Source: Henriciella sp.
Lineage (GTDB): Bacteria; Pseudomonadota; Alphaproteobacteria; Caulobacterales; Hyphomonadaceae
Assembly (NCBI GenBank): GCA_017642885.1
Contig: JAEPOM010000029.1
Span: 1-34,040, forward strand
Direction of reading: 5' to 3'
DNA length: 34,040 bases
Positions 17,366 to 34,040 of this stretch are shown here, in pieces. The notes under the pieces were generated by a model. That model worked only from the letters and a program-made list of their open reading frames with translations, was not told the DNA's origin and made no database searches. Position numbers and translations under genes: made by a program. Positions within the stretch are counted from its first letter, which is position 1. Each line of letters opens with the position of its first letter.

Positions 17366-17445
17366 TTCGAGATGAGCCTATATGAATTGCGAACAAAGAG
17401 AATCATGAATCCGAGTTACGTGATTTAGCACACTCAGACACCGGA

Positions 17446-17485
17446 TGGATAACAGGATTGCATTCGAAGTCAAACACGCTAGAGC
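17446..17485. promoter_or_regulatory. LacI-type operator with predicted divergent promoters for the two SnoaL-like genes
   Basis: The 16-bp site TTGCATTCGAAGTCAA (17458-17473) is one of six copies of this palindrome. Read rightwards its first six bases TTGCAT could be a -35, followed after 16 bases by TAGAGC (17480-17485). Read leftwards on the minus strand TTGACT is a good -35, followed after 16 bases by TATCCA (17451-17446), preceded by an extended TG. One repressor dimer would thus cover the -35 elements of both divergent promoters. The match to other copies is seen; the promoter assignment is inference. Confidence 0.7.
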
Positions 17486-17506
17486 TGACCTGAAGAGAGG
17501 GTTCAA

Positions 17507-18526
17507 ATGACGAGAATTTGCGACGCCAAGGCGCTTGTCAGGAAGCATATGCGGTCATTCGACGGCGCTCCGGATGACGCGCTGATTAAACATGGATGCC
17601 AGGGGCTGGGCGATGACTTCAAATGGCGCAGCATGCATCCGTTTTATGAGAGGACCGGGATCGAAGCGGTGGTCACCGAATTTTGGCAACCCCTACGTCA
17701 GTCCTTACGCCACCTGCAACGCCGCGAGGACATTTTCTTCGGCGGCGAGAACGATGTTGATCAGGGCGCTAGCGTATGGACTTGCAGCATGGGCCATTTT
17801 GTCGGTCTGTTTGATGTTGATTGGCTGGGCATTCCCCGCACAGGGCGCATAGCACACCTTCGATATGCGGAGTTTATGCGCGTAGAGGACGAAAAGATCG
17901 TCGAGAGCGCGCTTTTTTTTGATTTGATCGGGTTGATGCATCAAGCTGGCGTCTACCCATTGCCCCCAATGACCGGATCTTACTTTATCTATCCCGGCCC
18001 GCAGACGCATGATGGCATCCTCGATACGCCTCAGGACGAGGCGGAAACGCGTGAAACGATTGATTTGATGAATCGAATGATTGCCGATCTCGATTCAATC
18101 AATCACCTAACCGGCTCCAAATGCCCACCTGAGCTCCTCGCACGCACCTGGCGCGAGGACATGATATGGTATGGCCCATGTGGCATAGGAGCGAGCTACA
18201 CGATCGCGCGATATCAAGAGCAACACCAGCACCCGTTTCGGCTCAATCTGGCTGACAAAACTTATAATGGTCACGTTGCACGCTTTACTGAAGGAACATA
18301 CGGTGGCTTTTTTGGTTGGGCGAATTTGAGTAATCGAAACATTGGCGGCTTTCTGGGCTTACCTGAAGCGACCAAATCAAGTGAGATGCGTGTGGTCGAT
18401 GTCTATCGGCGCGACGGTGACAAGCTCGCCGAGAACTGGGTTTTTATAGATTTACCGTATTATCTCAAACAGCAAGGCCTGGATGTTCTCGAACGTCTCG
18501 CGCAACTACGTGGACACGAGCTCTAA
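17507..18526 (+). CDS. Double SnoaL-like (NTF2-fold) protein, paralogue B
   Basis: This 339-residue protein has the same two-barrel plan as the divergent paralogue. An N-terminal SnoaL-like half contains CSMGHFVGLFDVDWLGIPRT and LRYAEFMRVEDEKIVE. The C-terminal half contains MIWYGPCGIGASYTIARY and ENWVFIDLPYYLKQQGLDVL. It has no signal peptide. The start ATG has a good ribosome site (GAGAGGG, 6 bases before). The LacI-type operator lies about 33 bases upstream of the start. Its stop (TAA) overlaps the stop of the convergent TRIC-type gene by four bases. Probably a small-molecule isomerase, cyclase or hydratase of the shared pathway; keeping two paralogues under one operator suggests consecutive or alternative substrates. 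Confidence 0.8.
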   Translation: MTRICDAKALVRKHMRSFDGAPDDALIKHGCQGLGDDFKWRSMHPFYERTGIEAVVTEFWQPLRQSLRHLQRREDIFFGGENDVDQGASVWTCSMGHFVGLFDVDWLGIPRTGRIAHLRYAEFMRVEDEKIVESALFFDLIGLMHQAGVYPLPPMTGSYFIYPGPQTHDGILDTPQDEAETRETIDLMNRMIADLDSINHLTGSKCPPELLARTWREDMIWYGPCGIGASYTIARYQEQHQHPFRLNLADKTYNGHVARFTEGTYGGFFGWANLSNRNIGGFLGLPEATKSSEMRVVDVYRRDGDKLAENWVFIDLPYYLKQQGLDVLERLAQLRGHEL

Positions 18527-19146
18527 CGGGATTTCGAATGTGGTTTGGGCAAGTTCAAATCGTATTTGATAGCGATCGCACGAATGAGAAAAATCGTTAC
18601 AGCGCCTAGGAATAGACTCAGTGACGCATCGAAGCTCACATTGCGCAATATCCAGAATACCAGACATCCGATCAGCGCGGCCGTGGCGTAGATGTCTTCC
18701 CGAAGCAGCATGGCTTTTTCGCCACAAACGATATCGCGGATCAATCCTCCAGCAGTCGCCGTGATTGTCCCCATTATGATCACGACAAAAATCCCGTGTC
18801 CAAAGTCTAAAGCCTTGGAGGCCCCGGTCATTGCGAAGAGAGATAAGCCAACGGCGTCAATCCAAACCAAAACGCGTAAGCGCGCCCAAAAACCGGGTGA
18901 CAGAAATGCTGCTATGCCGCCGATCATCGCGGCGAGCAAACTGATGGGATCGTTCAACCAGAACACAGGCTGATCAAGGAGAAGATCGCGAAGCGTGCCA
19001 CCACCCACAGCTGGGAGAAATGACACCACGACGATGCCAAACAGATCCATGTCCTGTCGGATCGCAACAAGCCCGCCGGAGAGCGCGAATACAAATACGC
19101 CAGCGACGTCAATTAACCGCAGGAAGATTTCCGCGTCGATCAACAT
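18523..19146 (-). CDS. TRIC-type / UPF0126 membrane protein (YicG-like)
   Basis: This 207-residue integral membrane protein has about seven hydrophobic helices. It is built from two repeats, each with a glycine-rich kinked helix: VGGGTLRDLLLDQPVFW in the first and TATAGGLIRDIVCGEKAML in the second. This is the UPF0126 family. Structurally studied bacterial members are trimeric potassium-permeable TRIC channels, while E. coli YicG has been linked to glycine transport. Its ATG overlaps the serine dehydratase stop by seven bases, so it is translated as the second gene of that operon and would share its operator. An amino-acid transport role beside serine dehydratase would make sense but is inference. 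Confidence 0.85.
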   Translation of the reverse strand: MLIDAEIFLRLIDVAGVFVFALSGGLVAIRQDMDLFGIVVVSFLPAVGGGTLRDLLLDQPVFWLNDPISLLAAMIGGIAAFLSPGFWARLRVLVWIDAVGLSLFAMTGASKALDFGHGIFVVIIMGTITATAGGLIRDIVCGEKAMLLREDIYATAALIGCLVFWILRNVSFDASLSLFLGAVTIFLIRAIAIKYDLNLPKPHSKSR

Positions 19147-20516
19147 TCCACGACATTTACAGCCAAACCACCCTGACTGGTTTCCTTGTATTTCGACGAC
19201 ATATCCAAACCGGTCTGGCGCATAGTTTCGATGACCTGATCGAGAGTCACTTTCATTGGGCCGGTTGAATGCAGGGCGAGACGGGCAGCATTGACCGCTT
19301 TGACCGCGCCGAGCGCATTGCGTTCAATGCAAGGGATTTGAACAAGTCCACCTACAGGATCGCATGTTACGCCGAGATTGTGCTCCATGCCGATCTCCGC
19401 CGCCTGAGCGATCTGTTGCGGTGTGCCTCCCCAAACTGCGGCAAGGCCTCCCGCCGCCATAGAGCAGGCGACTCCAACTTCGCCCTGGCATCCCATTTCA
19501 GCGCCGGAAATCGATGCGCGTTGCTTGTAAAGCAAGCCAATACCGCCGGCTGTCAGCAAAAATGTTTCAACATCCTGCTCTGACTTTGAACTCTCAGCGC
19601 AGTAATGTCTCAGGACTGCTGGAATTATTCCTGCAGCCCCATTTGTAGGCGCTGTCACAACTTTACCGCCGGCCGCGTTTTCTTCGTTGACCGCCATCGC
19701 GTAGGTGTTCAGCCAATCGAAAAGTTGCTCTTTCTCATTCGCCTGCGGCTGCGCGCAAAGTTTGCCCCAGAGATTAGGTGCGCGCCTGGTTACCTCGAGC
19801 GCGCCTGGAAGAGTGCCCTCGGTTTCTAATCCGCGATCGATGCAATTCATCATAACGGCCATGATTTCAGCCAATGAGGCCTTGGTCTCGTGGCGGGGTC
19901 GTTTGGCATCCTCATTCGCAAGAATAATCTCATGAATGTTCAAGGCCTCGCGTTCACAGTGCTGAAGTAATTCTGCCGCGGATCCAAATTCGAACGGGAC
20001 GGTCCCTCCTGCTGACACAAAATCTCTTTCAACGGGCCGCATTAATTGCGCTTTCGATGCAATAAAGCCACCGCCAGTCGAGTAGTACGTTTTCGAAACA
20101 AGCGTTTGGCCATCGGCATTCAGCGTGCAGCACTCCATTTCGTTAGGATGGAGATCGGCCGGTCGGTCGAAATCCATCACAATATCGCGCAGAGGGTCAA
20201 ATTCGATCTGTACTGAGGCGTTGAGTTGCAATCGCTTGCTCTCGGAGAGCATTTTCACTGCCTGATCGGCGCAATCCAAATCAATTGTTTCAGGGTCGTA
20301 TCCAAGCAATCCAAGCGTTACAGCTCTCGGAGTTGCATGCCCTTCTCCTGTGAAAGCAAGCGATCCTCTCAATATGACTTTGAGGCTTTGACCGGCAGCT
20401 GCATCTGGAGACCGAGCAACCGAATGCATGAAACGGCGAGCGATGCGCATGGGGCCAACGGTATGGGAACTGGATGGACCAATACCAACTCGAAAGACCT
20501 CTAAGACGGATAACAT
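19140..20516 (-). CDS. sdaA: L-serine ammonia-lyase, single-chain iron-sulfur type
   Basis: The enzyme deaminates L-serine to pyruvate and ammonia using a [4Fe-4S] cluster. From the chosen start it has 458 residues, a normal length for the fused beta-alpha bacterial form. The N-terminal domain begins [20 protein letters not shown]. The catalytic domain has [14 protein letters not shown] and the three conserved cysteines in [22 protein letters not shown] and VQIPCIERN. The frame extends 26 codons upstream, but [11 protein letters not shown] is the family start and GGAAAG lies about 9 bases before it; an ATG at 20540 would sit inside the operator. The operator ends 18 bases upstream. Its downstream partner is the TRIC-type protein. 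In this regulon it could turn serine released by the pathway into pyruvate, or simply couple amino-acid use to it. Confidence 0.92.
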
Positions 20517-20534
20517 GAGGGCACACTTTCCATT

Positions 20535-20550
20535 TTGCATTCGAATGCAA
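20535..20550. promoter_or_regulatory. LacI-type operator between sdaA and the alpha/beta hydrolase
   Basis: TTGCATTCGAATGCAA is a perfect 16-bp palindrome with the central CG typical of LacI-family sites. It lies 18 bases before the sdaA start and 42 bases before the divergent hydrolase start, so one site may control both. On the plus strand TTGCAT could act as a -35 with a weak TTTCAT 17 bases on; for sdaA the promoter must lie further upstream, putting the site in its leader. Confidence 0.75.
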
Positions 20551-20592
20551 CATGTGCTTTCATTAAGTTCTGCTCGCGATGGAATCAATGCC

Positions 20593-21348
20593 ATGAATCA
20601 TCAATCAGTCGTCTTTCTTCCTGGTTTCATGTGCGATGACCGGTTGTTTCGACCGCAAATCGAAAGCCTTTCCCGAACCGGTATTGCTTGCTCGGTCGGC
20701 GACTTGACGCAGGCTTGTTCAATCGAACGTATGGCGCAACTGGTTCTCAAAGAAGCTCCAAAGCGGTTCGCGATCGCTGGCCTCTCCATGGGCGGAATTG
20801 TTGCGCTCGAGATTTACAAGCAGGCACCAGAGCGTATTACGCATCTGGCCCTCATGAACACGACGGCACGCGCCGATGCAGCTGGCCAAGCGCGCAAAAA
20901 GCAGCTTGGCCGGGTCGCTGCTGGCGAGTTGGATCTTGTGCTACGCGAAGAATTGAAACCGCAATATCTGGCACCCCAGAACAGAACGCCCGAGCGCCTC
21001 GAAATTCTCGAAGCCATGGGTGTGGGACTTGGTGAAGACGTCTTCTGCCGACAAACCATGGCCTTGACCATTCGAGGCTCCTACCTGGAAACCGCAGCGA
21101 GCGTGCTTTGCCCAACTCTGATTATCGCCGGCGCTGAGGACAGGGTTTGTCCGTTGGACCGTCACGAAGAGATCGCCAGTCGAATTGAACAGGCGCGTCT
21201 GACCATACTTCCGGATTGCGGGCATATCTCTACTTTGGAGCAGCCAGAGGCGGTATCTGCGGCCATCACTGAGCTTCTCAAACAACCAGCAGCTCAGGCT
21301 ACGCGTAGCGGAAACTGCAAACTGGAAGTGGTAAAAACACCAAATTGA
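20593..21348 (+). CDS. Alpha/beta-fold hydrolase
   Basis: This 251-residue cytoplasmic hydrolase has the oxyanion-hole strand VVFLPGFMCDD near the N-terminus, the nucleophile elbow GLSMGG (serine near residue 65), the acid in IIAGAEDRVCP and the catalytic histidine in DCGHISTLEQPE. The size and layout fit small esterase, lactonase or ring-fission hydrolases. The frame is open well upstream (from 20428), but that part crosses the operator and the divergent sdaA start and is not protein-like, so the ATG at 20593 is preferred. Its TGA stop lies within the next operator, directly ahead of the cupin gene. Probably opens an ester or lactone intermediate; the substrate is not readable from sequence. 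Confidence 0.88.
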   Translation: MNHQSVVFLPGFMCDDRLFRPQIESLSRTGIACSVGDLTQACSIERMAQLVLKEAPKRFAIAGLSMGGIVALEIYKQAPERITHLALMNTTARADAAGQARKKQLGRVAAGELDLVLREELKPQYLAPQNRTPERLEILEAMGVGLGEDVFCRQTMALTIRGSYLETAASVLCPTLIIAGAEDRVCPLDRHEEIASRIEQARLTILPDCGHISTLEQPEAVSAAITELLKQPAAQATRSGNCKLEVVKTPN

Positions 21349-21372
21349 CTTCGAATGCAAAAGTGCTAAGCA
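21345..21372 (+). promoter_or_regulatory. LacI-type operator and predicted promoter of the cupin operon
   Basis: The site TTGACTTCGAATGCAA spans 21345-21360. Its first six bases are a good -35 (TTGACT), and 16 bases later TAAGCA (21367-21372) follows an extended TG (TGCTAAGCA). The same arrangement occurs ahead of the histidinol-dehydrogenase-like gene. The hydrolase stop codon is inside the site. It lies 34 bases before the cupin start and should control the cupin-SDR-SnoaL-amidohydrolase operon. Confidence 0.75.
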
Positions 21373-21394
21373 TAGGCAGAGAAGGATTGTTGCC

Positions 21395-22387
21395 ATGCCA
21401 GATACTGTTGTACAGGAACGCTCACGAATCGAAGATCGAATTGTTCGCTATGCCGATCTTGAGCCATGCTATGACGCGTTTATCGACACCCGCACGCCGG
21501 GGTCGGACAAGAAAGAGAATTTCACGATTATCGGCCCGGGCGTTTCGGAAAATCCGAACCAGCATGTCCACATTGCGGAGCCACACGGATTCAATATAGG
21601 CGGCGCACGCCAGCCGCCACGCTGCACCAATTCACAGCACAGCCATCAAACTGTTGAAGTTTTCTATGTTCACACAGGGCAGTGGCGATTTGACCTCGGT
21701 GAACATGCTGATGACGCTCAAATCTGCTTGGGGCCGGGAGATCTGATTTCGATTCCGACCAACGTGTTCCGCGGCTTCACGAATACAGGCGAAAGCGATG
21801 GGTTCCTTTGGGCAGTGCTCGGCGGGGACGACCCTGGCCATGTTTTGTGGGCTCCAAAAGTCTTCGATATGGCGCGGGACTATGGCTTGCTTCTTCTTGA
21901 AGACGGTATGCTGATTGATATCAATAAAGGCGAGAAGGTTCCTGCTGGCAAAGCGGTGATGCCAGTCACAACAGAAGCGCAAGTCGCTGCGCTTGACGTC
22001 TTCAGCAATGCCCAGTTGGAAGCGTGCGTTATTCGATCTGGTGCCAGCGTCAATTTCGGACCGTTCAACACGATCAAAGGCGTCCGCGAAACCGAACTCA
22101 TTGGTCCAAAGCCGATCGATTGGTCACATGGATTCACGCTTAACGAGATAGAGATCGAGGCAAGCGCGACGATTCCTTCTCACCGAATGCAAGTTGCTGA
22201 CGTCTATTTCGTGCAGACTGGGAAAATAATTGTGTCCATCGATGATGAGAAAACCATCCTGACAGCTGGCGACACCATCACGTTTCCGGTCGGGACACGG
22301 CGATCTTTCACGAATGCGAACGATGTCGCCGCTCGCATAGTGGCGGTTCGCGGCGGTGACAAGAATCCAGAGATCGAGTGGATATGA
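21395..22387 (+). CDS. Double-cupin protein
   Basis: This 330-residue protein has two cupin barrels. The first (about residues 65-150) has the metal-binding pattern HSHQTVEVFYVHTG and PGDLISIPTNVFRGF. The fourth ligand position of classical cupins appears to be Arg rather than His. The second (about 240-325) has PSHRMQVADVYFVQTGK and AGDTITFPVGTRRSF, with a poorer metal set. Such bicupins include gentisate-type dioxygenases, isomerases and proteins without known activity, so a ring-cleaving role is possible but unproven. AGAAGGA lies 7 bases before the ATG. It is the first gene of a four-gene operon with overlaps or short gaps, and its stop overlaps the SDR start. Confidence 0.75.
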   Translation: MPDTVVQERSRIEDRIVRYADLEPCYDAFIDTRTPGSDKKENFTIIGPGVSENPNQHVHIAEPHGFNIGGARQPPRCTNSQHSHQTVEVFYVHTGQWRFDLGEHADDAQICLGPGDLISIPTNVFRGFTNTGESDGFLWAVLGGDDPGHVLWAPKVFDMARDYGLLLLEDGMLIDINKGEKVPAGKAVMPVTTEAQVAALDVFSNAQLEACVIRSGASVNFGPFNTIKGVRETELIGPKPIDWSHGFTLNEIEIEASATIPSHRMQVADVYFVQTGKIIVSIDDEKTILTAGDTITFPVGTRRSFTNANDVAARIVAVRGGDKNPEIEWI

Positions 22388-23109
22388 ACCAAGAACTGAG
22401 CGGCAAGCGCGCCGTCGTCACTGGCGCCAGTCGCGGCATAGGCCGGGCCATCTGTGAAACCCTGCACCGCGCTGGCGCGATAATTATCCCGGTGGCACGC
22501 CCATCAGACGCGATGGACGACCTTGTCGCAGCCTGTCCAGAGCGCTGCGAACCTTGGACCGGCGACGCCGCCTCCGATGAGCTGCTCGATTTCATCGCGG
22601 GGCAAGACCGCGTTGACATTCTAGTCAATAATGTTGGCACAAACATTCCAAAGCCGATGATTGACGTCGCTGACCAAGACCTGGACCGGATGCTCGATCT
22701 GAATGTTCGCACCACCTATCGCGTGTCGCGCGCCGCGCTGGTTGCCATGCCAAACGGGGGTCGTATCGCTCATATCAGCTCACAGATGGGACATGTCGGC
22801 TCACCCAATCGTACGGTCTATTGCATGACCAAGCACGCGATTGAGGGGCTGACCAAAGCGATGGCCGTCGAACTTGCTGAGAAAGGCATTCGCGTAAATT
22901 CGGTTGCGCCGACCTTTGTCGAGACGCCGATGACGAAGCCGATGCTGGATGACCCCGAGTTTTCCGCCTTCGTGAAACGAATGATCCCGCTCGGAACGGT
23001 CGCCAGCACGGAAGACATTGCCGAAGCGGTGCTCTATCTATGCGGCCCGGCCGGCAAGATGATTACCGGCCATTCTCTCGTGGTCGATGGCGGCTGGACC
23101 GCGCATTAG
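22384..23109 (+). CDS. Short-chain dehydrogenase/reductase
   Basis: This 241-residue classical SDR has the nucleotide-binding TGASRGIG at residues 14-21 (from ATG 22384), the structural motif VNNVGTN, the catalytic serine in HISSQMG and the YxxxK pair in YCMTK. The C-terminal GHSLVVDGGWT is typical. It should oxidise a secondary alcohol or reduce a ketone with NAD(P). The ATG overlaps the cupin stop by four bases (ATGA); a GTG two codons earlier is possible. Similar SDRs work as sugar or hydroxy-acid dehydrogenases next to amidohydrolase-type lactonases, which fits the gene two positions downstream. Confidence 0.9.
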   Translation: MNQELSGKRAVVTGASRGIGRAICETLHRAGAIIIPVARPSDAMDDLVAACPERCEPWTGDAASDELLDFIAGQDRVDILVNNVGTNIPKPMIDVADQDLDRMLDLNVRTTYRVSRAALVAMPNGGRIAHISSQMGHVGSPNRTVYCMTKHAIEGLTKAMAVELAEKGIRVNSVAPTFVETPMTKPMLDDPEFSAFVKRMIPLGTVASTEDIAEAVLYLCGPAGKMITGHSLVVDGGWTAH

Positions 23110-23117
23110 GGGTAAAA

Positions 23118-24185
23118 ATGAGCACGAAACCGATCACCCACGTCGCTACGACGGATATCACCGAGATGATGAAACCCGGCGAAGGCAGGCGCATGGATCT
23201 CCCTGGTTTCGACGCAGAGTTCGTCGATTTTCCGCACTACATTGTTCGTATTACGGAACGGATCTGGCACGATCGCGACGTTGAGAAATGCCTCGATTGG
23301 TACGCAGAAGACTGCGCCATTCATACTATGGCGGGTGACATTGTCGGCGCGCAGACCGTCGTCCAGAACACGTGGGCTACACTGAAAGCATTTCCGGATC
23401 GCCGCCTAGACGCAGACAATGTGATCTGGTCCGATGAAGGCGATGACGCGTTCTATTCCTCGCACCTGATTACCTCCAAGATGACCAATGAGGGTCCAAG
23501 CGAATTTGGGCCTGTCACCGGAAAGCAGATCCGCGTTCAGACGATTGCAGAATGCTTGTGTAAGGATAACCGCGTCATCGAAGAATGGCTGGTGAGAGAC
23601 AATCTCGCCGCTGTGCAGCAGCTTGGGTTCGATCCCGATCGCGTCGCCAGAGAGCAGGCGCAAGCGGATAAAGTGAACAGTTTTTCCCTGATTGATTTTC
23701 ATGCCGCAAACCGCGAGGCAGTTCTTGCAGGAGATTCGGTGTCGACGGACCAGTCCGACGCCGTTGGCATCGCTGCTAACGCTCTTCGCGCGTCGTTTGC
23801 CACACCCGATTTGGACCGGTTGCGCGACGTCTATGATTTCCGTGTTCAGGCACACTATCCAGGCGACGTCTCACTTTATGGGCCCGACCAGGTCCAAAGC
23901 TGGTGCGCCGGCCTACGCAAGGCCTTCCCGGACTTGACTGTATCGATCGATCATGTCGCCGACATTCCGTATCTTGGAACGGCGCGCGACGTTTCATTGC
24001 GCTGGGCCGCAACGGGAACCCATGGCGGCGCCGGGCGATATGGTCCTCCGAGCAACGCACCCATATACATCCTCGGGGTTACGCACTTCCGGGTTATGAA
24101 CGGGCGGGTGCGCGAGCAGATCACGATTTGGGATGACATCGCGCTTCGCCGCCAGATCGCCAGCGCGAGATATCAGGGTGGGTGA
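23118..24185 (+). CDS. Double SnoaL-like (NTF2-fold) protein, third copy
   Basis: This 355-residue protein has two SnoaL-like halves. The first is about residues 35-190 and includes ERIWHDRDVEKCLDWYAED, CAIHTMAGDIVGAQTVV and VIEEWLVRDNLAAVQQLG. The second is about 215-350 and includes YGPDQVQSWCAGLRKAFPDL, YILGVTHFRVMNGRV and REQITIWDDIALRRQI. It is more distant from the 16.3 and 17.5 kb proteins than they are from each other, but has the same architecture and length. The ATG at 23118 has AGGGG about 6 bases before it; the frame is open further upstream only because it overlaps the SDR. The reaction is unknown; a cyclase, isomerase or hydratase-like role is reasonable. Confidence 0.8.
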   Translation: MSTKPITHVATTDITEMMKPGEGRRMDLPGFDAEFVDFPHYIVRITERIWHDRDVEKCLDWYAEDCAIHTMAGDIVGAQTVVQNTWATLKAFPDRRLDADNVIWSDEGDDAFYSSHLITSKMTNEGPSEFGPVTGKQIRVQTIAECLCKDNRVIEEWLVRDNLAAVQQLGFDPDRVAREQAQADKVNSFSLIDFHAANREAVLAGDSVSTDQSDAVGIAANALRASFATPDLDRLRDVYDFRVQAHYPGDVSLYGPDQVQSWCAGLRKAFPDLTVSIDHVADIPYLGTARDVSLRWAATGTHGGAGRYGPPSNAPIYILGVTHFRVMNGRVREQITIWDDIALRRQIASARYQGG

Positions 24186-25074
24186 CCTGCCTTATATCGT
24201 CGATGCTCACCACCATCTGTGGGACCTCGACGCCTGTCGACACACCTGGCTCGCCGAGCGCGGCGTCGTGAGGTTCTTTGGTGATCCGGCTCCGATCCAG
24301 AAGAATTACCATGTCAGCGATTTGCGCGAAGATTTCGGCAAGCTTCCGATCAAGAAGTCCGTCCATATCCAGGTCGGCGTTGAGGTGGATGACAGCATCA
24401 ACGAGACGGACTGGCTGCAGCGCCAGGCGGATCAATTTGGATTGCCGACCGCAATCATTCCGTTCTGTGATCTCACGAGCGATACGGTCGAAGCCGATCT
24501 AGACGCACATCTGGCGCATTCTGCTGTTCGGGGCGTTCGCCAGATCATTGGGCGCAGCGCTGAAGAGGACCGCAAGACGGGCACCTCAGCATTGCTTGGA
24601 AACCAGGATTTCAAACGCGGTCTAAACGTGCTAGCGAGCAAGGGCCTGTCTTTTGACCTGCAGCTCACGCCGCCCCTGATGCAAGCATCCGCTGCACTGT
24701 TAGCCGACATCCCGGATCTAAAGGTCGCGCTGTGTCATGGCGGCTCGCTCAGCACATTTGATCAGGCCAGTCTCGACGAATGGACTCGCGGGCTGAAAGC
24801 GCTGGCAAACCTTCCAAACGTGATTTGCAAACTGTCCGGTTTTGGCATGTTTCAACACGATTGGACGCCGGAAAGCGTCGCCCCGCTAATCCACCGGGCG
24901 ATTGAAATCTTTGGCCCGGACCGGGTTGCGTTCGGGTCAAATTTTCCGGTCGATAAGCTCTATGCATCCTATGGCGACACGATGGGTGCATATCTGAACA
25001 TTTGCGATGCGTACTCGCCGAGCGAGCGCGATCAGATGTTCCGATCTGTGGCGGAGCGCTTTTATCGGATCTAG
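24178..25074 (+). CDS. Amidohydrolase-2 family metal-dependent hydrolase (lactonase-like)
   Basis: This 298-residue TIM-barrel hydrolase has the N-terminal metal motif DAHHHLWD, a mid-protein HIQVGVEV strand, the histidine in LCHGGS and the aspartate in FGSNFPVD. These are the hallmarks of the amidohydrolase-2 group that includes fuconolactonase and 2-pyrone-4,6-dicarboxylate hydrolase. It probably hydrolyses a lactone formed by the SDR. I prefer the GTG at 24178, whose first bases overlap the SnoaL stop and after which the protein-like part begins (GDLPYIVDAHHHLW). An ATG at 24133 would add 15 residues that overlap the preceding gene. Its last four bases, CTAG, also form the stop of the convergent aldolase. 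Confidence 0.85.
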   Translation: MGDLPYIVDAHHHLWDLDACRHTWLAERGVVRFFGDPAPIQKNYHVSDLREDFGKLPIKKSVHIQVGVEVDDSINETDWLQRQADQFGLPTAIIPFCDLTSDTVEADLDAHLAHSAVRGVRQIIGRSAEEDRKTGTSALLGNQDFKRGLNVLASKGLSFDLQLTPPLMQASAALLADIPDLKVALCHGGSLSTFDQASLDEWTRGLKALANLPNVICKLSGFGMFQHDWTPESVAPLIHRAIEIFGPDRVAFGSNFPVDKLYASYGDTMGAYLNICDAYSPSERDQMFRSVAERFYRI

Positions 25075-25829
25075 AAGTGAGATCGAACCTGCGCCGTCAT
25101 TTGCGCAGCGCCGGACAGCATAAACCCATGATCTGACCCGAGCAGAAAAAGGCTCGCACCAGCAGCGCGCCATTTTGGCAACTCATCCAAGTTCCCCGTG
25201 AACATGCCAATCGTGACACCTGCCTCACTACCCTTGGCACAGATGGCTTCAACGGCTTCGATTACCTGAGGGTCGTTAGGTCCTTTAGCGCTTAGCGAGA
25301 CCGACAAGTCAGCCCGTCCAATAAAAAAGGCGTCGATAGTGGAGGCTGCGAAAATCGCATCGAGATTGTCGAGCGCTTCAGCGTCTTCGATTTGCGCGAT
25401 GACCACCGTTTCCTCAGCACTTCTAGCTTTGTGTTCGGCCATACTCCGCGCGCCATAACCTGCCGCCCGAGATGACCCAGCATAACCGCGACCGGTTCCG
25501 AAATGTGCATTTCCGGCCAAGGCTTCAGCATCACCGCCCGTTATCACATGCGGCACCAAAACACCCGTCGCCCCACAGTCGAGCGCGTTGAGAATGTGCT
25601 CAGGCCGATTGGCCGGCACGCGGACGAGGCTTGGCTTGCCCACATGCTGTAAAGCGAGCACGCAATTATTGATGTCACCGCGATCAAACGGCGAATGTTC
25701 GGCATCAAGACAGATAAGATCCAGGTCGCTGCGGCCCAGGACCTCGCAAATCATCGCCGATGGTGTCTTCAAAAACGTACCGACAAGAGGCGTCTGATCG
25801 CGGAGTTTTTGCTTCAAACTCATGCCCAC
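25071..25829 (-). CDS. HpcH/HpaI-family aldolase
   Basis: This 252-residue class II, metal-dependent aldolase cleaves 2-keto-3-deoxy or 4-hydroxy-2-keto acids to pyruvate plus an aldehyde. Family motifs are GTFLKTPSAMICEVLG at the start, CLDAEHSPFD, GVLVPHV, SSRAAGYGA, the metal-binding glutamate in IAQIEDAEAL, and FFIGRADLSVSL. Its start overlaps the end of the MetE-like gene by 10 bases, so it is the last gene of the minus-strand operon; its TAG shares four bases with the amidohydrolase stop. It would supply the carbon-carbon cleavage step of the pathway, yielding pyruvate. Confidence 0.9.
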   Translation of the reverse strand: MGMSLKQKLRDQTPLVGTFLKTPSAMICEVLGRSDLDLICLDAEHSPFDRGDINNCVLALQHVGKPSLVRVPANRPEHILNALDCGATGVLVPHVITGGDAEALAGNAHFGTGRGYAGSSRAAGYGARSMAEHKARSAEETVVIAQIEDAEALDNLDAIFAASTIDAFFIGRADLSVSLSAKGPNDPQVIEAVEAICAKGSEAGVTIGMFTGNLDELPKWRAAGASLFLLGSDHGFMLSGAAQMTAQVRSHF

Positions 25830-26974
25830 AACCTCTCGGACGCCAGCGCCGCACCCTCGGCCAGCGCGCCCAGCTTCGCATAGACAATATCCTCATCAAC
25901 CGCCCCGAACCCGGCAAATGTCGAGAAGCCGCAATCGGTTCCGGCGATCACGCGCTCTTTGCCGACAATGTCGGTAAAGCGTTCGATCCGTTGCGCGACC
26001 AATTCAGGATGCTCGATGAAATTCGTGGTGGAGTCGATTACTCCTGGGATGAGGATTTTGTCTTTTAGCTCGCCGCGCTTTTCGGCGTCCGCGAAGACAG
26101 TCCATTCATGACCGTGGCGAGGATTGGCGTTCTCGAATAAGAGACCTTGTGGTTTCGCTTTGAGCGCGACAGGCAACACCTCGTCCATCGGAGCATCACA
26201 ATGGTGTGGCCCTTCGTAATTGCCCCAGCAGATATGCATCCGCACCCGATCGCCAGGTACATTCCGCAAGGCATGGTTCAGCACTTCCACATGCTGACTG
26301 GCAAGGCGGTGATAGTCTTCTAGCGGTTTGTCCTTGAACATCATATGACGGCCGAGACCGAGGTCTGGCGTGTCGAGTTGCAAGATGTGGCCAGCCTCAA
26401 CAATCGCCTCATATTCTGGGCGCATCGCCTCGGCCAACGCCTCCAGGTACTCATCCTGTGTTCCGTAGAACTCATTCGGTTGGAACAATGCGATCACGCC
26501 GGGGCTTGCCGCGTTCATAAAGCTATCGCTGTGTCCTGCCCCGTCCAGCGCGTCAGCCAAATGGCGCAAGTCTGCCTCGAGAGGCGCCATGCTTTTGACC
26601 TTGATCTCACCGACGCATTTTGGCCGCCGATAAGTTGGCGTCCCCCCACCCTTGGCCTGCCGTTCGAGAAATCCAGGAAATTCTTCGAGATCCGCTGGCG
26701 CGCGCCGGGGACTGTCGCCGTCAAACCCTGTGATTCGGTCCTTGATATACGTCGCGTAGGAGATTTTGCTCATCTCACCGTCGCTGATAATGTCGACCGA
26801 AGACTCTCTCTGACGTTTCACGGTCTCAGAAACAGCGCTCGAAATGACAGCATCAAATTCTGATTGATCGATCTGCTCACCAGCTTCGTGACCAAATACC
26901 AAGTCGGTGACAGACTTGGACCTTGGCAAACTACCGACATGTGTCGTGAGAATTCGATCCTGGCTAATTTTCAT
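25820..26974 (-). CDS. Stand-alone MetE catalytic-domain protein
   Basis: This 384-residue protein corresponds to the C-terminal TIM-barrel of cobalamin-independent methionine synthase; the N-terminal MetE half is absent. The start TTHVGSLPRS and the zinc ligands are visible: H and C in HICWGNYEG, the glutamate in LLFENANPRHGHE, and the cysteine in IAGTDCGFS. The enzyme could transfer a methyl group to a thiol, or act on another thiol or C-S compound; its place in a catabolic operon argues against housekeeping methionine synthesis. GGAG lies about 10 bases before the ATG, and a LacI-type operator is 17 bases upstream. It overlaps the aldolase start. A methylated or thioether substrate for the regulon is an attractive but unproven idea. 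Confidence 0.85.
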   Translation of the reverse strand: MKISQDRILTTHVGSLPRSKSVTDLVFGHEAGEQIDQSEFDAVISSAVSETVKRQRESSVDIISDGEMSKISYATYIKDRITGFDGDSPRRAPADLEEFPGFLERQAKGGGTPTYRRPKCVGEIKVKSMAPLEADLRHLADALDGAGHSDSFMNAASPGVIALFQPNEFYGTQDEYLEALAEAMRPEYEAIVEAGHILQLDTPDLGLGRHMMFKDKPLEDYHRLASQHVEVLNHALRNVPGDRVRMHICWGNYEGPHHCDAPMDEVLPVALKAKPQGLLFENANPRHGHEWTVFADAEKRGELKDKILIPGVIDSTTNFIEHPELVAQRIERFTDIVGKERVIAGTDCGFSTFAGFGAVDEDIVYAKLGALAEGAALASERLWA

Positions 26975-26991
26975 GACGCTTCACTCCGAAT

Positions 26992-27007
26992 ATGCATTCG
27001 AAGTCAT
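26992..27007 (-). promoter_or_regulatory. LacI-type operator ahead of the MetE-like gene
   Basis: ATGCATTCGAAGTCAT is the asymmetric version of the regulon palindrome, with one TGCATTC half and one TGACTTC half around the central CG. It sits between the repressor stop (27012) and the MetE-like start (26974), so close to the ribosome site that it may block transcription coming from upstream rather than a promoter of its own. Confidence 0.65.
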
Positions 27008-27011
27008 ACGT

Positions 27012-28082
27012 CTATGTGCGTGCGCGGGCAATAGAGCCGCCAGGAATTACTGCGCCCTCGAAGACGCGCTTTTCGTGAGATTGCTCCGGGTGTTCAACCC
27101 GATCTGAAATCATTCGAACTGCGGCCTCTGACATCCGGCCAATCGGTTGTCGGATCGTGGTTAGCTCATAGCTCGAAAACTGGCTCATCCCGATACCGTC
27201 AAAACTGATAATTGATAGATCTTCGGGGACCTTCAGGCCAAGGACTGATCTTGCCTCATCCATGCACCCCATCGCCATCATATCGTTGACGCAGATGATA
27301 ACCGTTGGCTCGTCGCCGTCTTGCTGTTTGATGGATTGCAGACCTGCGGCGCCGCTTTCATAAGAAAAGTCACCTTGCGTTTCGGCAGTGATCTGAATAC
27401 CCGAACGTGCCAATGCATCTTTGGTCATGCGAACGCGTTCGCGGTTCACCATGTTTTCGACTGGTCCAGAAATAAGCGCGGCTTTCTTGTGTCGCAGTTC
27501 GGCGAGCTGAGCGACTAGCGATTCCAGTTGTTCCGAAGGATCGCAATAGACGACCGTGTTCGGATGATCGGCAAAGTATCGGTTAAAGAAGACCACAGGA
27601 ATCTTGCGTTTCTCGAGCAGCTGATACTGCTCTTGGGTCATGTGAGATGCAGAAATTACGCCGTCGACCTGGAATTGCCAGGCTTGCTCGATCACCGTCT
27701 CAGCGTCTTCTTCGTTTTCGACTGTGAACAATAAAGCCCTCAAGCCAGCCGCAGAGAGCTCTTCGGTGATTTTAAAGAGCGCCTCCGGATAATAGAGATT
27801 CAACCGGCCCGAAACGAGCACTGCAACCAGATTGGAGCGCTGTGTAATCAGCCCGCGCGCGATCGCATTTGGCTGATACTCCAGCTCCTTTGCCGCTTTC
27901 ATCACTCGTTCGCGCATCTTTCCGGAGATGCTCGAACCGGGTTTGAAACAGCGCGAAACCGCCGATTGCGAGACGCCAGCAAGACGCGCAACGTCGTATG
28001 ATGTCGCGCGCCTTCCCTTGATCAGCGGAATGACCTTGGACTCGTCCTCAGGCGGGTTCTTTTTGTGCGGGTTGTTGGCCAT
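27012..28082 (-). CDS. LacI-family transcriptional repressor of the catabolic regulon
   Basis: This 356-residue regulator has the LacI helix-turn-helix at about residues 27-48 ([20 protein letters not shown]) and the hinge helix QPNAIARGL (about 74-82). A periplasmic-binding-protein-like effector domain follows, with [44 protein letters not shown] and [14 protein letters not shown] charged extension of about 25 residues precedes the DNA-binding domain. Its start lies inside the end of the histidinol-dehydrogenase-like gene (35-base overlap), so it is co-transcribed and probably autoregulated through the upstream operators. Six palindromic sites with central CG occur in this locus and it is the only LacI protein here, so I infer it binds them. 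The inducer is probably a pathway intermediate. Confidence 0.92.
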
Positions 28083-29346
28083 AGCGTCTCACACGAATGT
28101 CTGCCTGTTCCTTGTGACCGGCAAATCCTTCCAAGGCGCAAAGGCGAGAACAATATTCTCCCACCATAACAGAAGCTTCCCGCGTCGCGCGTTGGAATGT
28201 GCAAGTCTTAATGAACTTACCAACCCAAAGCCCGCCTGTATAGCGTGCTGCTTTCATGGTCGGAAGGGTATGGTTCGTGCCAATGACTTTATCGCCATAC
28301 GAGACATTGGTTTCCTGCCCCAGGAACAGAGCGCCATAATTGGTCATGTTATCCAGAAAGTAGTCGGGGTCTTTCGTCATGACCTGCACATGCTCGGACG
28401 CAATCTCGTCGGCAACTTCGACCATCTCTTCGTAACTATCACACACAATGACCTGACCATACTCGCGCCAGGCCTCGCCCGCGACGTCTGCTGTCGGCAA
28501 CCATTCGAGCTGACGCTCGACCGCTTCCATCGTGCGCTTGGCTAGGCTTTCCGAATTTGTCAGGAGCACAGCTGGCGAGGTTGGACCATGCTCAGCCTGT
28601 CCCAGTAAATCGGCGGCGCAAAAGTCTTCATCGACGCTCTCATCCGCGATGATCAGAGTCTCAGTCGGTCCTGCGAACAGGTCGATACCAACCCGGCCGA
28701 AAAGCTGTCGTTTGGCTTCAGCGACGAAAGCATTACCCGGCCCGACAATCATATCGACGGGCGCAATGGTTTCGGTCCCAATCGCCATCGCGCCAATGCC
28801 TTGCACCCCGCCGAGCGAGTAGATTTCATCAGCGCCCGCCATATCCATGGCCACTACGATGGCGGGATGCGGACGGCCTTCGAAGGGGGGAGCAGTCGCG
28901 ATGATGCGCGGCACGCCAGCGACTTTCGCTGTGACGACGCTCATGTGGGCCGATGCGATCAGTGGATACTTGCCGCCCGGAATGTAACAGCCGACGGAGT
29001 TTACGGGCACGTTCTTGTGTCCGAGGATGACGCCTGGAAGTGTCTCGACTTCGACGTCCTGGAGCGCGTTCTTCTGGATCTGAGCAAAGTTCCGGACTTG
29101 CTCCTGGGCAAATCGGATGTCGCTGATCGCCTGCTCATCCAGCTCTTTATAGCAAGCATCAATCTCGTCTCGCGTCAGACGATAGCTTTCAGGGCTCCAC
29201 TTATCGAACTTCTCCGACAGGTCGCGCACAGCCACGTCGCCGCGCGTGTCGATGTCTTCTAGAATATCCTCAACCGTCTTGCGAACCTGCGCATCGGCCT
29301 TTTGCTTGATGTCGGGGTCAATTCCCTCTTTGAGCCATTTCGCCAT
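28048..29346 (-). CDS. Histidinol-dehydrogenase-family NAD-dependent dehydrogenase (catabolic)
   Basis: This 432-residue protein has the HisD fold and keeps its key residues: [36 protein letters not shown], zinc ligands Q and H in GQAEHGP, the catalytic EH in ASEHVQV, the aspartate in [13 protein letters not shown] and the C-terminal zinc histidine in [10 protein letters not shown]. Such enzymes oxidise a primary alcohol to an acid in two NAD-dependent steps. No other his genes are near, and it lies in a LacI regulon; non-histidine relatives such as HpsN oxidise dihydroxypropanesulfonate, so a different alcohol is likely the substrate here. I chose ATG 29346 (CGGAGA about 7 bases before) over a TTG two codons earlier. 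A perfect operator lies 37 bases upstream. Confidence 0.88.
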
Positions 29347-29371
29347 GACCAATCTCCGTGTTAACGGGGCT

Positions 29372-29402
29372 GTCTTAGCAGTTTTGCATTCGAATGCAAA
29401 AC
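29372..29402 (-). promoter_or_regulatory. LacI-type operator and predicted promoter of the histidinol-dehydrogenase-like gene
   Basis: The core TTGCATTCGAATGCAA (29384-29399) is a perfect palindrome, and the symmetry extends three bases on each side to 29381-29402, the longest of the six copies. Read on the minus strand, TTGCAT is followed after 16 bases by TAAGAC (29377-29372) with an extended TG, the same layout and nearly the same bases as at the cupin promoter. Binding would cover the -35. Confidence 0.8.
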
Positions 29403-29430
29403 AAAAAATACGCTTCCGTTCTGTTTTACG

Positions 29431-31062
29431 CTATGCGCCCCCAAGTGTGCCGAACCAGGCCAGAAAAAGCACGATCAAAACGAAGAAACCAAGCAGATAC
29501 CACGCGATATTATCGACCCGCCCTGGCGCCACGTACCAACCATCTTGTTTTTCGGGCAAGCCTTCTGATTTAAAACGGCGTAACTGCCCGACAACGGTTT
29601 GCGGATGCCAGCCCTTCTGGAATCCATCTAGCAGGACGCTGGCCGTCCAGGAAACGGCAATATTGATCACACCCCCGATCACGACATACCAGGGCCATGC
29701 GACGGTCGCCGGCTCCAATCCCAGTATCGGCACCCCAGCCACAATCGCATAAAGCCCGAGAAAGCCTGTCCCGACCCCAACCAACAATCCGCGTTCTGTC
29801 GTGTGCTTGGACAAGAACCCAAGCCCGAACATAGCGAGTTTAGCGCCCACGAAATAGGAGGCAACCTGGCTCAAGCGCTCAAGGATCGACCCACCACTAT
29901 TGATGAAGGCGAAGGCGATCGGTACGGCGAGCACGGCCCAGACAACAGTGAAAGCGCGGGATGCCGCAAGAAAATGCGCGGTGCTTGCTTCGGCTTTGTA
30001 GAAGCGTTGATAAAAATCCGTAACTGAGATTGTCGCGAGTGAATTGAGCGCCGAAGACAGGCTCGACATCGAGGCTGAAAGCACAGCTGCGGCGAGAATT
30101 CCCATCAAGCCTGGAATCGCCAGCGACTGCGCAAAAACCAGGATTATCTCGTTCGGCTGTTCGAACGGTTCGCCCTTAAAGTGGACATACAAGAGCGCGC
30201 CGATGAAGAAGAACAGGAAGTAGATGAAGAACGCGGCAAAGCCCATCATCAAATAGGATTTCTTAGCATCGCCGAGCGTTTTAGCTGCCAGCGCCCGCTG
30301 AACCATCATCTGGTTCGTGCCGTATACGGTGATGTGGAAAAGCGTCATCGCGAGGACGCCTGCCCATACGGTCGGCGCAACAGAGAAATCAAGATCAGTA
30401 TTGATCGGATTGAGTTTTCCATCATTGGCAAGCGTATCGAGCGCGCCAGATAGCGGACTGACTTCGCCAAGCAGACCCCAAAGCACAATCCCTGCGCCGA
30501 CAAAAAGGATCACGCCTTGCAGGACGTCGGTCCAGATCACGGCATTCATGCCGCCCAGCATAGTATAAACCAAAACGACGAGCGTCATCCCAATGATTGC
30601 GATCTGAACATCAATCCCCGTTGCGAATGTAATCACCACTGCGGTGGCGGTCAGGATCGACGCAGTCGTGATCGTCTGGGTCAGTAGGAAGATGGCCGAC
30701 ATGACTGTTCGCGAGGCGAGACCGAAGCGTTGCTCCAGATACTCATAAATCGAGGCCACACCGCTATTGTAGAAAAATGGTAGGAAAAGAACGATGACGA
30801 CGAAAATAACCAGTGGGTAATTGATATGAATGGCCAGCGCCGCCATGCCATCGCCATAGGCCCAGGCGGGTCCGCCAAGGAAGGATAGCGCGCTGACATA
30901 GGTCGCTACGACTGAAATACCGATAGCCCACCAGGGCGCGGACCTGTCGCCAATTTGGTAATCAGCCGCGGTTTTCACCTTTCGACTCATCGCGTAGCCG
31001 AGCAAGAGGTTGCCCACCAAGTAAGCTACGACGATCGCCCAATTTAGCGCACCAAATTCCAT
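29431..31062 (-). CDS. Sodium:solute symporter (SSS/SLC5 family)
   Basis: This 543-residue inner-membrane transporter has about 13 hydrophobic helices. Family signatures are LGYAMSRKVKTAADYQIGDR, WWAIGISVVATYVSALSFLG, the long GGMNAVIWTDVLQGVILFVG segment and SSLSSALNSLATISVTDFYQ near helix 8-9. It should import a small organic solute (sugar, organic acid or amino-acid-like) with sodium. I chose ATG 31062 because GGGAGG lies about 10 bases before it; the TTG six codons earlier lacks one. An operator lies 55 bases upstream, and the histidinol-dehydrogenase-like gene follows. It is the obvious uptake step of the LacI regulon. Confidence 0.92.
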   Translation of the reverse strand: MEFGALNWAIVVAYLVGNLLLGYAMSRKVKTAADYQIGDRSAPWWAIGISVVATYVSALSFLGGPAWAYGDGMAALAIHINYPLVIFVVIVLFLPFFYNSGVASIYEYLEQRFGLASRTVMSAIFLLTQTITTASILTATAVVITFATGIDVQIAIIGMTLVVLVYTMLGGMNAVIWTDVLQGVILFVGAGIVLWGLLGEVSPLSGALDTLANDGKLNPINTDLDFSVAPTVWAGVLAMTLFHITVYGTNQMMVQRALAAKTLGDAKKSYLMMGFAAFFIYFLFFFIGALLYVHFKGEPFEQPNEIILVFAQSLAIPGLMGILAAAVLSASMSSLSSALNSLATISVTDFYQRFYKAEASTAHFLAASRAFTVVWAVLAVPIAFAFINSGGSILERLSQVASYFVGAKLAMFGLGFLSKHTTERGLLVGVGTGFLGLYAIVAGVPILGLEPATVAWPWYVVIGGVINIAVSWTASVLLDGFQKGWHPQTVVGQLRRFKSEGLPEKQDGWYVAPGRVDNIAWYLLGFFVLIVLFLAWFGTLGGA

Positions 31063-31117
31063 ACTAAGCAGGCCTCCCAACCCGATACTTTAGATGACGT
31101 CAGCCGTCTGGAGCTTT

Positions 31118-31133
31118 GTGACTTCGAATGCAA
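31118..31133 (-). promoter_or_regulatory. LacI-type operator ahead of the symporter
   Basis: GTGACTTCGAATGCAA matches the cupin site at 15 of 16 bases. It lies in the short gap between the lipoprotein-esterase stop (31141) and the symporter start (31062). On the minus strand it reads TTGCAT with no convincing -10 at 16 bases, so the exact promoter is unclear. Confidence 0.7.
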
Positions 31134-31140
31134 ATCAGTC

Positions 31141-32637
31141 TTAGCGATTATCCTGTACATTGCAATGAACGGCTTTTTCGCTCTGAGGCGCCGCATTGAA
31201 TCGGCACAAATCATGATTGATGAATGCGGCGTGCCCCGCCTGTGATCCAGGCGGCGAAAACCAGTCATGCTCGCTCACACCCAGGCTATGGGTGTTGCCG
31301 AAATATTCGAATGTTTGACATGCTCCGCCAGCGGCATTTGCACGTTCACAAAGATCAAAATTCCAGATCGGCAATGAATAATAGTCGCGGTCGGAGAAAT
31401 GCAGGTGGAGCGGTTCGGTTAGAAACTCTGCAGCATCAGCCCCACCGATCCGACTCATTATTTCAATCAGGCGAGGATCATGCGAAACGAAAGCTTGTCC
31501 CGCGTCGGTCGTATCCACTTCCCAGGACAAGTTCTCGAATTCACCGACCTGCTCGTTCAAAGTCTCATACATGTCGATGGCCTTCGCACGCAGCGCCCCT
31601 TCTATGCGTGGACGCGAAAACGTCTCCGATTGCCAAGTCCAATCTTCTGGATGCGGCGAACCGATCCAATCAGGCGGAAAGCCAAAAATAAAATTCGCGT
31701 TGGCGGTGCCATCTGACCCGATCGCCGTTCCCGTCCATGTCCCATCTCCTGCGAGAAACGCTTCCGGACTTGTGCTCATGGCGTCAAACGTGGCCAACTG
31801 CTCAAATCGAGCTGCAATGTTGCCGGCCCAGATCGATCCACCAGCAAATTCTATCTCCGACTGAGCTCCTTCACCCGTCGCGGCCAGAACCGTCAGGGTC
31901 ACATCGCCCCCCTGGGAGTGTCCATTTATGAAGTAACGCGAAGGATCGAGCCGGATAGTTCGCGGCGCACCATGCTCATCCAGGACGTTGATGCTTTCGA
32001 CTGATTGGCTGGCCGCGATCAGATTCAACACGTCAACCGCGTAGAAGCTCGGCATCAAATAGGCGCCATTGTCCCAGGCCAACATATCTGAGTGCCCCTC
32101 TGCGGGGACGCCTTTGACTGTACCGTGGCCGCGATACCCGGGCACGAGAACAACATAGCCAGCTTCGGCCCAGGCGTTGATAACATTGCCGTAGACGTCG
32201 CCGTAACTGGACTCCAGCGTGCATCCGAAATGCCAATCAGGGGCATTTTCTGACCCGACCCAGCCGTGCGCGAACACCATGACCGGATAGCCTTGCGGCG
32301 GAGGCGGCTCGAATGGAACATCAATTCTGGCATACAGAGACTGCCCCTCCGATTGGTACCGCGCCATGAGCCGCGTCGCCTGGCGGGGCCGCTCGCCGCT
32401 ATGCTCCTGGCTCGTACAGGTTCGATCGATCGGCGCAATCATAGCCAGCTCACCCTGGCCATACTGCCGGTTGCGTAATGCATCGATGGAGATGTCTGAA
32501 AGACGATCTAACTGGCTGCCTGCGAGAACAGGTTGCGTTCGCGCGCCTTCTGCGGACGGCAAAGCGCCCGCGCAGGCGGTGACGATCAATGCCGCTATGA
32601 ACGGAAATGCGTTAAAAGTTCGTCCGCTGAAGATCAT
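31141..32637 (-). CDS. Secreted lipoprotein alpha/beta hydrolase (esterase-like)
   Basis: This 498-residue protein begins with a lipoprotein signal peptide (MIFSGRTFNAFPFIAALIV, then the lipobox VTAC), so it should be membrane-anchored outside the cytoplasm. The hydrolase domain has VMVFAHGWVGSENAPDWHFG (oxyanion region), VLVPGYRGHGTVKG, the nucleophile elbow GHSQGG, a later acidic loop HFSDRDYYSLP and a candidate catalytic histidine in FGNTHSLGVSEHDW. I chose ATG 32637 because AGAGGA lies 7 bases before it; a GTG seven codons upstream is less likely. It may cleave an ester or depolymerise a substrate before uptake by the neighbouring symporter. The intrinsic terminator of the TonB receptor gene lies just upstream, so its own promoter would have to fit in a very short gap, or it depends on read-through. 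Confidence 0.82.
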   Translation of the reverse strand: MIFSGRTFNAFPFIAALIVTACAGALPSAEGARTQPVLAGSQLDRLSDISIDALRNRQYGQGELAMIAPIDRTCTSQEHSGERPRQATRLMARYQSEGQSLYARIDVPFEPPPPQGYPVMVFAHGWVGSENAPDWHFGCTLESSYGDVYGNVINAWAEAGYVVLVPGYRGHGTVKGVPAEGHSDMLAWDNGAYLMPSFYAVDVLNLIAASQSVESINVLDEHGAPRTIRLDPSRYFINGHSQGGDVTLTVLAATGEGAQSEIEFAGGSIWAGNIAARFEQLATFDAMSTSPEAFLAGDGTWTGTAIGSDGTANANFIFGFPPDWIGSPHPEDWTWQSETFSRPRIEGALRAKAIDMYETLNEQVGEFENLSWEVDTTDAGQAFVSHDPRLIEIMSRIGGADAAEFLTEPLHLHFSDRDYYSLPIWNFDLCERANAAGGACQTFEYFGNTHSLGVSEHDWFSPPGSQAGHAAFINHDLCRFNAAPQSEKAVHCNVQDNR

Positions 32638-32671
32638 CTCGTTGTCCTCTTTGCTCACCAGAGCTCACGAT

Positions 32672-32703
32672 AAGAAAAAAGGGAGGCCTGCAACAGGCCT
32701 CCC
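32672..32703 (-). terminator. Intrinsic terminator after the TonB receptor gene
   Basis: GGGAGGCCTG (32681-32690), a CAA loop and CAGGCCTCCC (32694-32703) form a perfect 10-bp GC-rich stem. On the minus strand it is followed by a T-rich tract (complement of 32672-32680). This is a textbook rho-independent terminator for transcripts coming leftwards from the TonB receptor gene, 66 bases after its stop. Confidence 0.9.
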
Positions 32704-32768
32704 CTCAGACGACACTCGCGCGTCCAATCGCTTCGGAGGAAAACCGAAACGCGCAAATGCCAGGAGGA

Positions 32769-33986: not shown

Positions 33987-34040
33987 TCACTCATAATGAG
34001 AGTCTGGCCTTTCCATAGTTCATAGTTTGAGGCTTGGCGA
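33971..34040. mobile_element. Probable insertion-sequence end interrupting the TonB receptor gene (copy 2)
   Basis: GAGACCCTTGGGTC (33971-33984) and AGTCTGGCCTTTCC (34001-34014) repeat, with few changes, the motif after sngC at 8668-8708. The first block is itself near-palindromic (GACCC-TT-GGGTC). Receptor-like coding sequence stops here, so this is the likely boundary of an inserted element extending beyond the window. No transposase is visible in the remaining bases, and I cannot assign a family. Confidence 0.5.

Follow-up and report, generated by a model that had tools for sequence, protein, structure and literature searches.

What does a 16-bp palindrome do that recurs six times on one contig of the marine bacterium Henriciella sp. 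(JAEPOM010000029.1; C21 in our labels, in which G denotes genomes compared, L loci fetched and C contigs)? The window analysed here is the whole of that contig, 34,040 bases of a 3.66 Mb genome. The original prediction took the palindromes for the sites of an undescribed LacI regulon, and the comparisons below support this; the same promoters bear sites in relatives, with some losses. Very probably, the palindromes are operators through which the LacI-family repressor encoded at 27012-28082, which is predicted to bind them, governs an uptake and catabolic pathway. The sites are numerous, stand at gene starts, are confined to one locus and occur together with lacI in Alpha-, Beta- and Gammaproteobacteria.

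Six candidate operators in the window

Sequence scans recovered all six palindromes at the coordinates originally given for them (none is assigned a strand):

17458..17473, operator 1, TTGCATTCGAAGTCAA, between the divergent SnoaL genes
20535..20550, operator 2, TTGCATTCGAATGCAA, between the divergent serine dehydratase and alpha/beta hydrolase genes
21345..21360, operator 3, TTGACTTCGAATGCAA, before the run of cupin, short-chain dehydrogenase/reductase (SDR), SnoaL and amidohydrolase genes
26992..27007, operator 4, ATGCATTCGAAGTCAT, between the lacI stop and the start of the MetE-like gene
29384..29399, operator 5, TTGCATTCGAATGCAA, before the hisD-like gene and lacI (autoregulation)
31118..31133, operator 6, GTGACTTCGAATGCAA, before the sodium symporter gene

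They share the degenerate 14-bp core TGMMTTCGAAKKCA (at 17459, 20536, 21346, 26993, 29385 and 31119). Two are the perfect palindrome TGCATTCGAATGCA, and the other four combine one TGCATTC half with one TGACTTC half. The sites at 20535 and 29384 match TTGCATTCGAATGCAA, the consensus first proposed, exactly. Scanning with that consensus at up to three mismatches gave five matches against 0.42 expected, and none of 100 shuffles reached at least five; the site at 26992 lies four mismatches from the consensus and was therefore missed, but it matches TGMMTTCGAAKKCA exactly. For the degenerate 14-mer, a dinucleotide Markov estimate predicts 0.0065 occurrences in the window (six observed) and 0.70 in the genome (seven observed).

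All seven exact genomic copies belong to this locus, six in the window and one on contig C20, which appears to continue it (see below), so the palindrome is not scattered through the genome. A further 14 places match at one mismatch, including C20:34924, 34 bp from the exact C20 copy; the reversed control pattern found a single place in the same genome at up to one mismatch. A short palindrome in several copies could also be a repeat or structural element, such as a mobile palindromic repeat, with no operator function. This is exceedingly improbable here, given the confinement of the copies to one locus, their position at gene starts, flanks that differ between promoters, and their near absence from 397 other Pseudomonadota genomes. 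Exact TGCATTCGAATGCA occurs in 4 of 398 genomes of that phylum: twice in the genome studied here and once in each of three others, where the 3-kb loci fetched held no match to seven proteins of our locus.

The placement agrees with what had been claimed, namely that each site is in or beside an intergenic gap at a gene start. Intergenic sequence makes up only 448 of the 16,328 bases from 16331 to 32658, yet five sites lie wholly inside it; the sixth (21346) is mostly intergenic, with a 3-base overlap onto the end of the gene upstream. With operons read from gene directions, a site precedes every gene from 16331 to 31080 or the run to which it belongs; the runs, including the overlapping hisD-like/lacI pair, are presumably cotranscribed. 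The operator at 29384 precedes the repressor's own hisD-like/lacI transcript, as in an autoregulated regulon. The central CG expected of LacI-family sites is present in all six window sites, in both C20 sites and in every Hyphomonadaceae site that we tabulated. The lone LacI protein of the original prediction also holds, with one among the 23 main open reading frames (ORFs) scanned.

Continuation to a TonB receptor

The predicted extent of the regulon, 16.3 to 31.1 kb, needs one amendment: the set continues past 31.1 kb to a TonB-dependent receptor. The window ends within that receptor gene. In L018 a single 829-aa ORF corresponds to its two halves, on C20 and at the window end, with matches of 91% and 94%, and C20 and C21 are therefore taken as neighbours, a probable adjacency drawn from relatives. 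The gene for the N-terminal half carries a doublet:

C20:34924-34937 and C20:34958-34971, TonB doublet operator, one near-copy (one mismatch, C20:34924) and one exact copy

Sites at the TonB gene stand 34-36 bp apart, and in five of six Hyphomonadaceae loci a further half-site, TGCATTCG, follows (for example L025 12978-12985). In G022, a second TonB receptor gene close to the regulon, 4.5 kb from the first, has its own doublet, 35 bp apart (L098 1115-1163; site C14:1150).

Sites and repressor in the family

The repressor has a LacI helix-turn-helix (PF00356, 52.7 bits) and a periplasmic-binding-protein-like core (PF13377, 86.9 bits), both over cut-off. We searched 105 Hyphomonadaceae genomes for LacI orthologues at an expect value (E) threshold of 1e-60. 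Seven genomes have a match, six of them at 68-100% identity and G069 at 45%. Exact pattern matches, counted completely over the 105 genomes, number 7 in G000, 6 in G016, 13 in G021, 9 in G022, 5 in G024 and 5 in G071; the other 99 have 0-4 each, with at least one in 33. Of the 45 sites in the six genomes with an orthologue, 43 lie at the regulon (including those on G000 C20, on G022 C214 and C475, and at G022 C14:1150), and the remaining two, both in G071, lie elsewhere. Among the matches listed, the sites of genomes without a close orthologue are mostly other words, e.g. TGAATTCGAAGGCA. The 14-mer of operator 1 is found at the same promoter in five other Hyphomonadaceae loci, and in L054 it is TGAATTCGAATGCA. 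G021 carries two copies of the cluster (C1 and C8, loci L018 and L020), each with its own lacI and sites; the serine dehydratase pair is absent from L020 as fetched.

A different regulator, either another LacI protein or a factor outside that family, might bind these sites, with the neighbouring lacI incidental. The genome encodes three LacI-family proteins, but the other two have different recognition helices (SAKTVSR and SQMTVSR, against SQSAVSR here), and neither has a site within 3 mismatches in its 3.1-kb locus. Orthologue and sites also occur together in six of six family genomes. In favour of another regulator, the recognition helix is also found in the site-less loci L052, L053 and L078, so the coupling of helix and site is not strict. 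On balance we consider this alternative very improbable, also in view of the plasmid loci described below, where the sites follow lacI rather than the enzymes.

Distant relatives and plasmids

A class-wide search of 385 genomes, including the one studied here, returned LacI at E 1e-85 in three and the cupin at E 1e-80 in five. In G118 (LacI 47% identical), the palindrome stands at a hisD-like gene, a second hisD-like gene, and the TonB and cupin genes, with one more, off-type match elsewhere. In G279 (45%) it stands at the hisD-like gene and beside a major facilitator superfamily (MFS) transporter gene, and in G268 and G365 (38%) the cluster is present without the site. Each of two Microbulbifer genomes (48-49%) has three pattern matches, and all of these belong to the cluster; one precedes a TonB receptor that lies just outside L023. 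G490 (L024) has zero pattern matches.

We also searched for perfect CG-centred 14-bp palindromes without knowledge of the motif. This recovered TGCATTCGAATGCA three times in Novosphingobium EMRT-2 (L074), where it is found beside lacI, once on a Klebsiella michiganensis plasmid, where it lies between lacI and hisD, and again in the G118 and G279 loci. It also returned a few unrelated palindromes and, ahead of a gene for a solute-binding protein in Sinorhizobium medicae, TGCATACGTATGCA.

The plasmids separate repressor from enzyme. From 209 hisD-like and 45 cupin records we chose a sample of 16 plasmid loci (11 via hisD, 5 via cupin), picked before the site search, although four of the first six (L074-L079), namely L074, L077, L078 and L079, had already been through the palindrome search when the last ten were fetched. 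Six of the eight loci with a lacI relative have a match within two mismatches (L074, L077, L079, L084, L085 and L086), against none of the eight without lacI (one-sided Fisher test, 0.0035), indicating that the site accompanies the repressor, not the enzyme. L075, one of the loci without lacI, had no hisD match. Across the family, Pseudomonadota and plasmid loci, the full set of sites is not kept where a close repressor orthologue is missing. On a conjugative-typed K. michiganensis plasmid, L077 (7776-14999) holds a compact version of the cluster, with lacI, hisD-like, SDR, MFS, hydrolase, aldolase and cupin genes and the same operator.

Anatomy of the sites

To describe the sites we used 50 Hyphomonadaceae sites (100 halves), chosen as lying within one mismatch of four CA/AC words; they do not include the doublet of G022's second TonB receptor. 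The halves comprise 58 TGCATTC, 35 TGACTTC, 3 CGCATTC, 2 TGCATGC, 1 TGCATCC and 1 TGAATTC. After TG, the next two positions thus read CA or AC, apart from a single AA; CC never occurs, although all four were permitted in the genome scans. Outside the family other half-site words appear (TGAATTC, TGATTTC and TGCATAC).

The combination of half-sites is mostly constant per promoter across species, with exceptions in L054 and at the first TonB site of L019. Between orthologous promoters, site identity is 1.00 (0.87 at the first TonB site), vs 0.34-0.56 in the 30-base flanks. The metE flanks, which run into genes, are higher (0.82 and 0.88). This comparison was made without L054 at snoaL1 and metE, which have the variant sites TGAATTCGAATGCA and TGCATCCGAATGCA. 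The identity of 1.00 stems partly from how the rows were selected, but the constancy of half-site type is free of that choice.

One idea is that the TGACTTC half might double as a -35 element (TTGACT). The orientation fits at snoaL1, cupin, metE and tonB.a; it fails at the symporter, and a promoter scan was empty at the sites.

Several observations weigh against a simple assignment of the sites to this repressor. A scan for consensus sigma-70-like promoters found none at any site, and the region as a whole has 4, fewer than the 9.3 of shuffled sequence. At the symporter, the TGACTTC half faces the gene, unlike at snoaL1, cupin, metE and tonB.a. Orthologous promoters lack the site at the alpha/beta hydrolase gene in L020, at the cupin gene in L016 and L054, and at the symporter gene in L016 and L021. 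Six loci with lacI have no site (L052 and L053, with a 38% LacI, L078, L083, L024 and the truncated L055). The helix VSQSAVSR is kept in L052, L053 and L078, and hence the helix alone is no predictor of the operator.

Genes of the regulon

The genes of the locus, with the evidence for each, are as follows.

16331..17365, minus strand, SnoaL-like protein 1 (family match)
17507..18526, plus strand, SnoaL-like protein 2 (family match)
18523..19146, minus strand, PF03458 membrane protein, downstream of the serine dehydratase gene
19140..20516, minus strand, L-serine dehydratase (sda_mono; TIGR00720 over cut-off; start candidate ATG 20516)
20593..21348, plus strand, alpha/beta hydrolase (PF12697, on the longer ORF 20428-21348; start ATG 20593)
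21395..22387, plus strand, two-domain cupin, 330 aa (PF07883; alignment)
22378..23109, plus strand, SDR (PF13561)
23040..24185, plus strand, SnoaL-like protein 3 (PF07366)
24133..25074, plus strand, amidohydrolase-2, lactonase-like (PF04909)
25071..25829, minus strand, HpcH/HpaI-type aldolase (PF03328)
25820..26974, minus strand, MetE-like protein of the cobalamin-independent methionine synthase family (PF01717)
27012..28082, minus strand, LacI-family repressor, 356 aa (PF00356 and PF13377)
28048..29346, minus strand, histidinol-dehydrogenase-like enzyme, GGKYPL subfamily (PF00815; motif; ATG 29346)
29431..31062, minus strand, sodium:solute symporter, SSS (PF00474; start candidate ATG 31062)
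31141..32637 (31141-32658 in the placement analysis), minus strand, hydrolase-like protein without a Pfam match
32769..34040, minus strand, TonB-dependent receptor, C-terminal half

A terminator-like hairpin with 13 pairs (32678-32706) follows the TonB gene, upstream of the gene at 31141-32658. The region shows no overall excess of terminator-like sites (17 vs 16.0 in shuffles). Lacking a site of its own and separated by this hairpin from the TonB gene, the gene at 31141-32658 is a weak member of the regulon.

Pathway membership can thus be read from the sequence, as had been proposed, in the sense of a gene list but not of a substrate. In other bacteria the core set consists of the hisD-like, SDR, cupin and alpha/beta hydrolase genes and an aldolase gene (HpcH/HpaI or RraA), often with SnoaL, and lacI. 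As fetched, L016, L020 and L021 have no serine dehydratase. The transporters vary among relatives (SSS, MFS and carbohydrate ATP-binding cassette types). Glycoside hydrolases lie near the locus in Novosphingobium EMRT-2 (L074) and an arabinogalactanase gene in Roseomonas (L084), but no common polysaccharide emerged from the relatives' neighbouring genes. The substrate is probably sugar-like, judging by the transporters, the LacI protein and the aldolase. The serine dehydratase had prompted the idea of a mycosporine-like amino acid, for which a literature search gave no support. A search of solved structures by sequence turned up nothing informative for the cupin, SnoaL and MetE-like proteins.

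Among solved structures, HpsN enzymes come closest to the HisD-like protein (E 1.7e-121), which could mean that the gene is hpsN and that the repressor controls the sulfopropanediol (DHPS) pathway. The enzyme shares with HpsN the Histidinol_dh fold, and the catalytic Glu-His pair and the zinc ligands Gln, His and Asp align. According to PMC11382572, HpsN is marked by G-R-Y-A/S-H, with the sulfonate-binding His126, and HisD by G-S-A-P-L. The window enzyme has neither motif; it reads GGKYPL where HpsN has GRYAH, and Leu takes the place of His126, so the sulfonate-binding His is missing. GGK followed by Y/F, P and L/M is found at every relative's locus examined for the motif, and the matches listed for the locus proteins include no sulfolyase or sulfopyruvate family. 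An identity as HpsN was rejected on the active-site motif, and control of a DHPS pathway is very improbable.

Like HisD, the enzyme belongs to PF00815 and matches TIGR00069 over cut-off, but it has GKYPL in place of GSAPL, and its gene is part of a catabolic cluster and has an operator in front of it. A second homologue in the genome, on C66, is 38% identical and has GGLASYPS in the motif region. Given the motif and this homologue, a role for the window enzyme in histidine biosynthesis is unlikely. A hisD-like paralogue with GGRFPL occurs in L050, L074 and L085, with an operator copy beside it in L050 and L074.

Upstream of the regulon, three genes at 2585-8669 match PADLOC SngA, SngB and SngC (E 4.8e-89, 6e-173 and 1.2e-262), which we take to be parts of the Shango anti-phage system. 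Directly after them (8923-13701) come a metallophosphatase and a large AAA/SMC-like ATPase, resembling SbcCD/Mre11-Rad50. An OLD-family ATPase-TOPRIM protein (Old/GajA-like, 13725-15617) lies between the defence genes and the regulon.

A proposed mechanism and its place among LacI regulons

Without substrate, a repressor dimer would sit on each 16-bp site, made of two half-sites (TGCATTC or TGACTTC) joined at the CG, and would block the surrounding uptake and catabolic genes, including its own hisD-like/lacI operon. A substrate or intermediate of the pathway would then free the repressor. A polar, probably sugar-like compound may be taken up via the TonB receptor and the SSS symporter and be oxidised by the HisD-like enzyme and the SDR. 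The hydrolase, amidohydrolase, cupin and SnoaL proteins would open or cleave it, and the HpcH/HpaI-type aldolase would split the product, probably to pyruvate.

The system is well supported as an ordinary, local, autoregulated LacI regulon. In a survey of the LacI family (PMC4052901), 1251 of 1303 factors have even palindromes, 1173 have a central CG pair, and 72% are autoregulated. Our locus resembles the local regulons described in that survey in its even, CG-centred palindrome, a repressor within the cluster, autoregulation, and the pairing of transporter with catabolic enzymes; it differs from those regulons in operator word, regulated genes and enzyme set. A literature search short of the supplementary regulon tables of PMC4052901 found no publication on the palindrome, or on SnoaL and histidinol dehydrogenase together, nor, judging by titles and abstract openings, one describing this regulon. 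What sets it apart is how many operators it has, their two-word half-sites, and the presence of one operator in three proteobacterial classes. Eight candidate operators over the cluster seem many for a local regulon, in our own judgement.

We lean slightly towards a broader reading, in which a LacI subgroup sharing one 14-bp operator would govern an undescribed catabolic pathway centred on a third, GGKYPL class of histidinol-dehydrogenase-like enzyme; pathway and operators would have travelled together between Alpha-, Beta- and Gammaproteobacteria. Within the Hyphomonadaceae, the assignment of TGCATTC and TGACTTC to each promoter might then encode an order of operator strength or reflect overlap with a promoter element.

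In uncultured bacteria from sea and soil, the operator would offer a sequence-based definition of the members of this pathway, including its transporters, and with the gene set defined, a search for the substrate becomes possible. Nearly identical across three proteobacterial classes, it could also serve as a tag for the pathway in metagenomes, and it offers an example in which the joint spread of a regulator and its sites can be studied.

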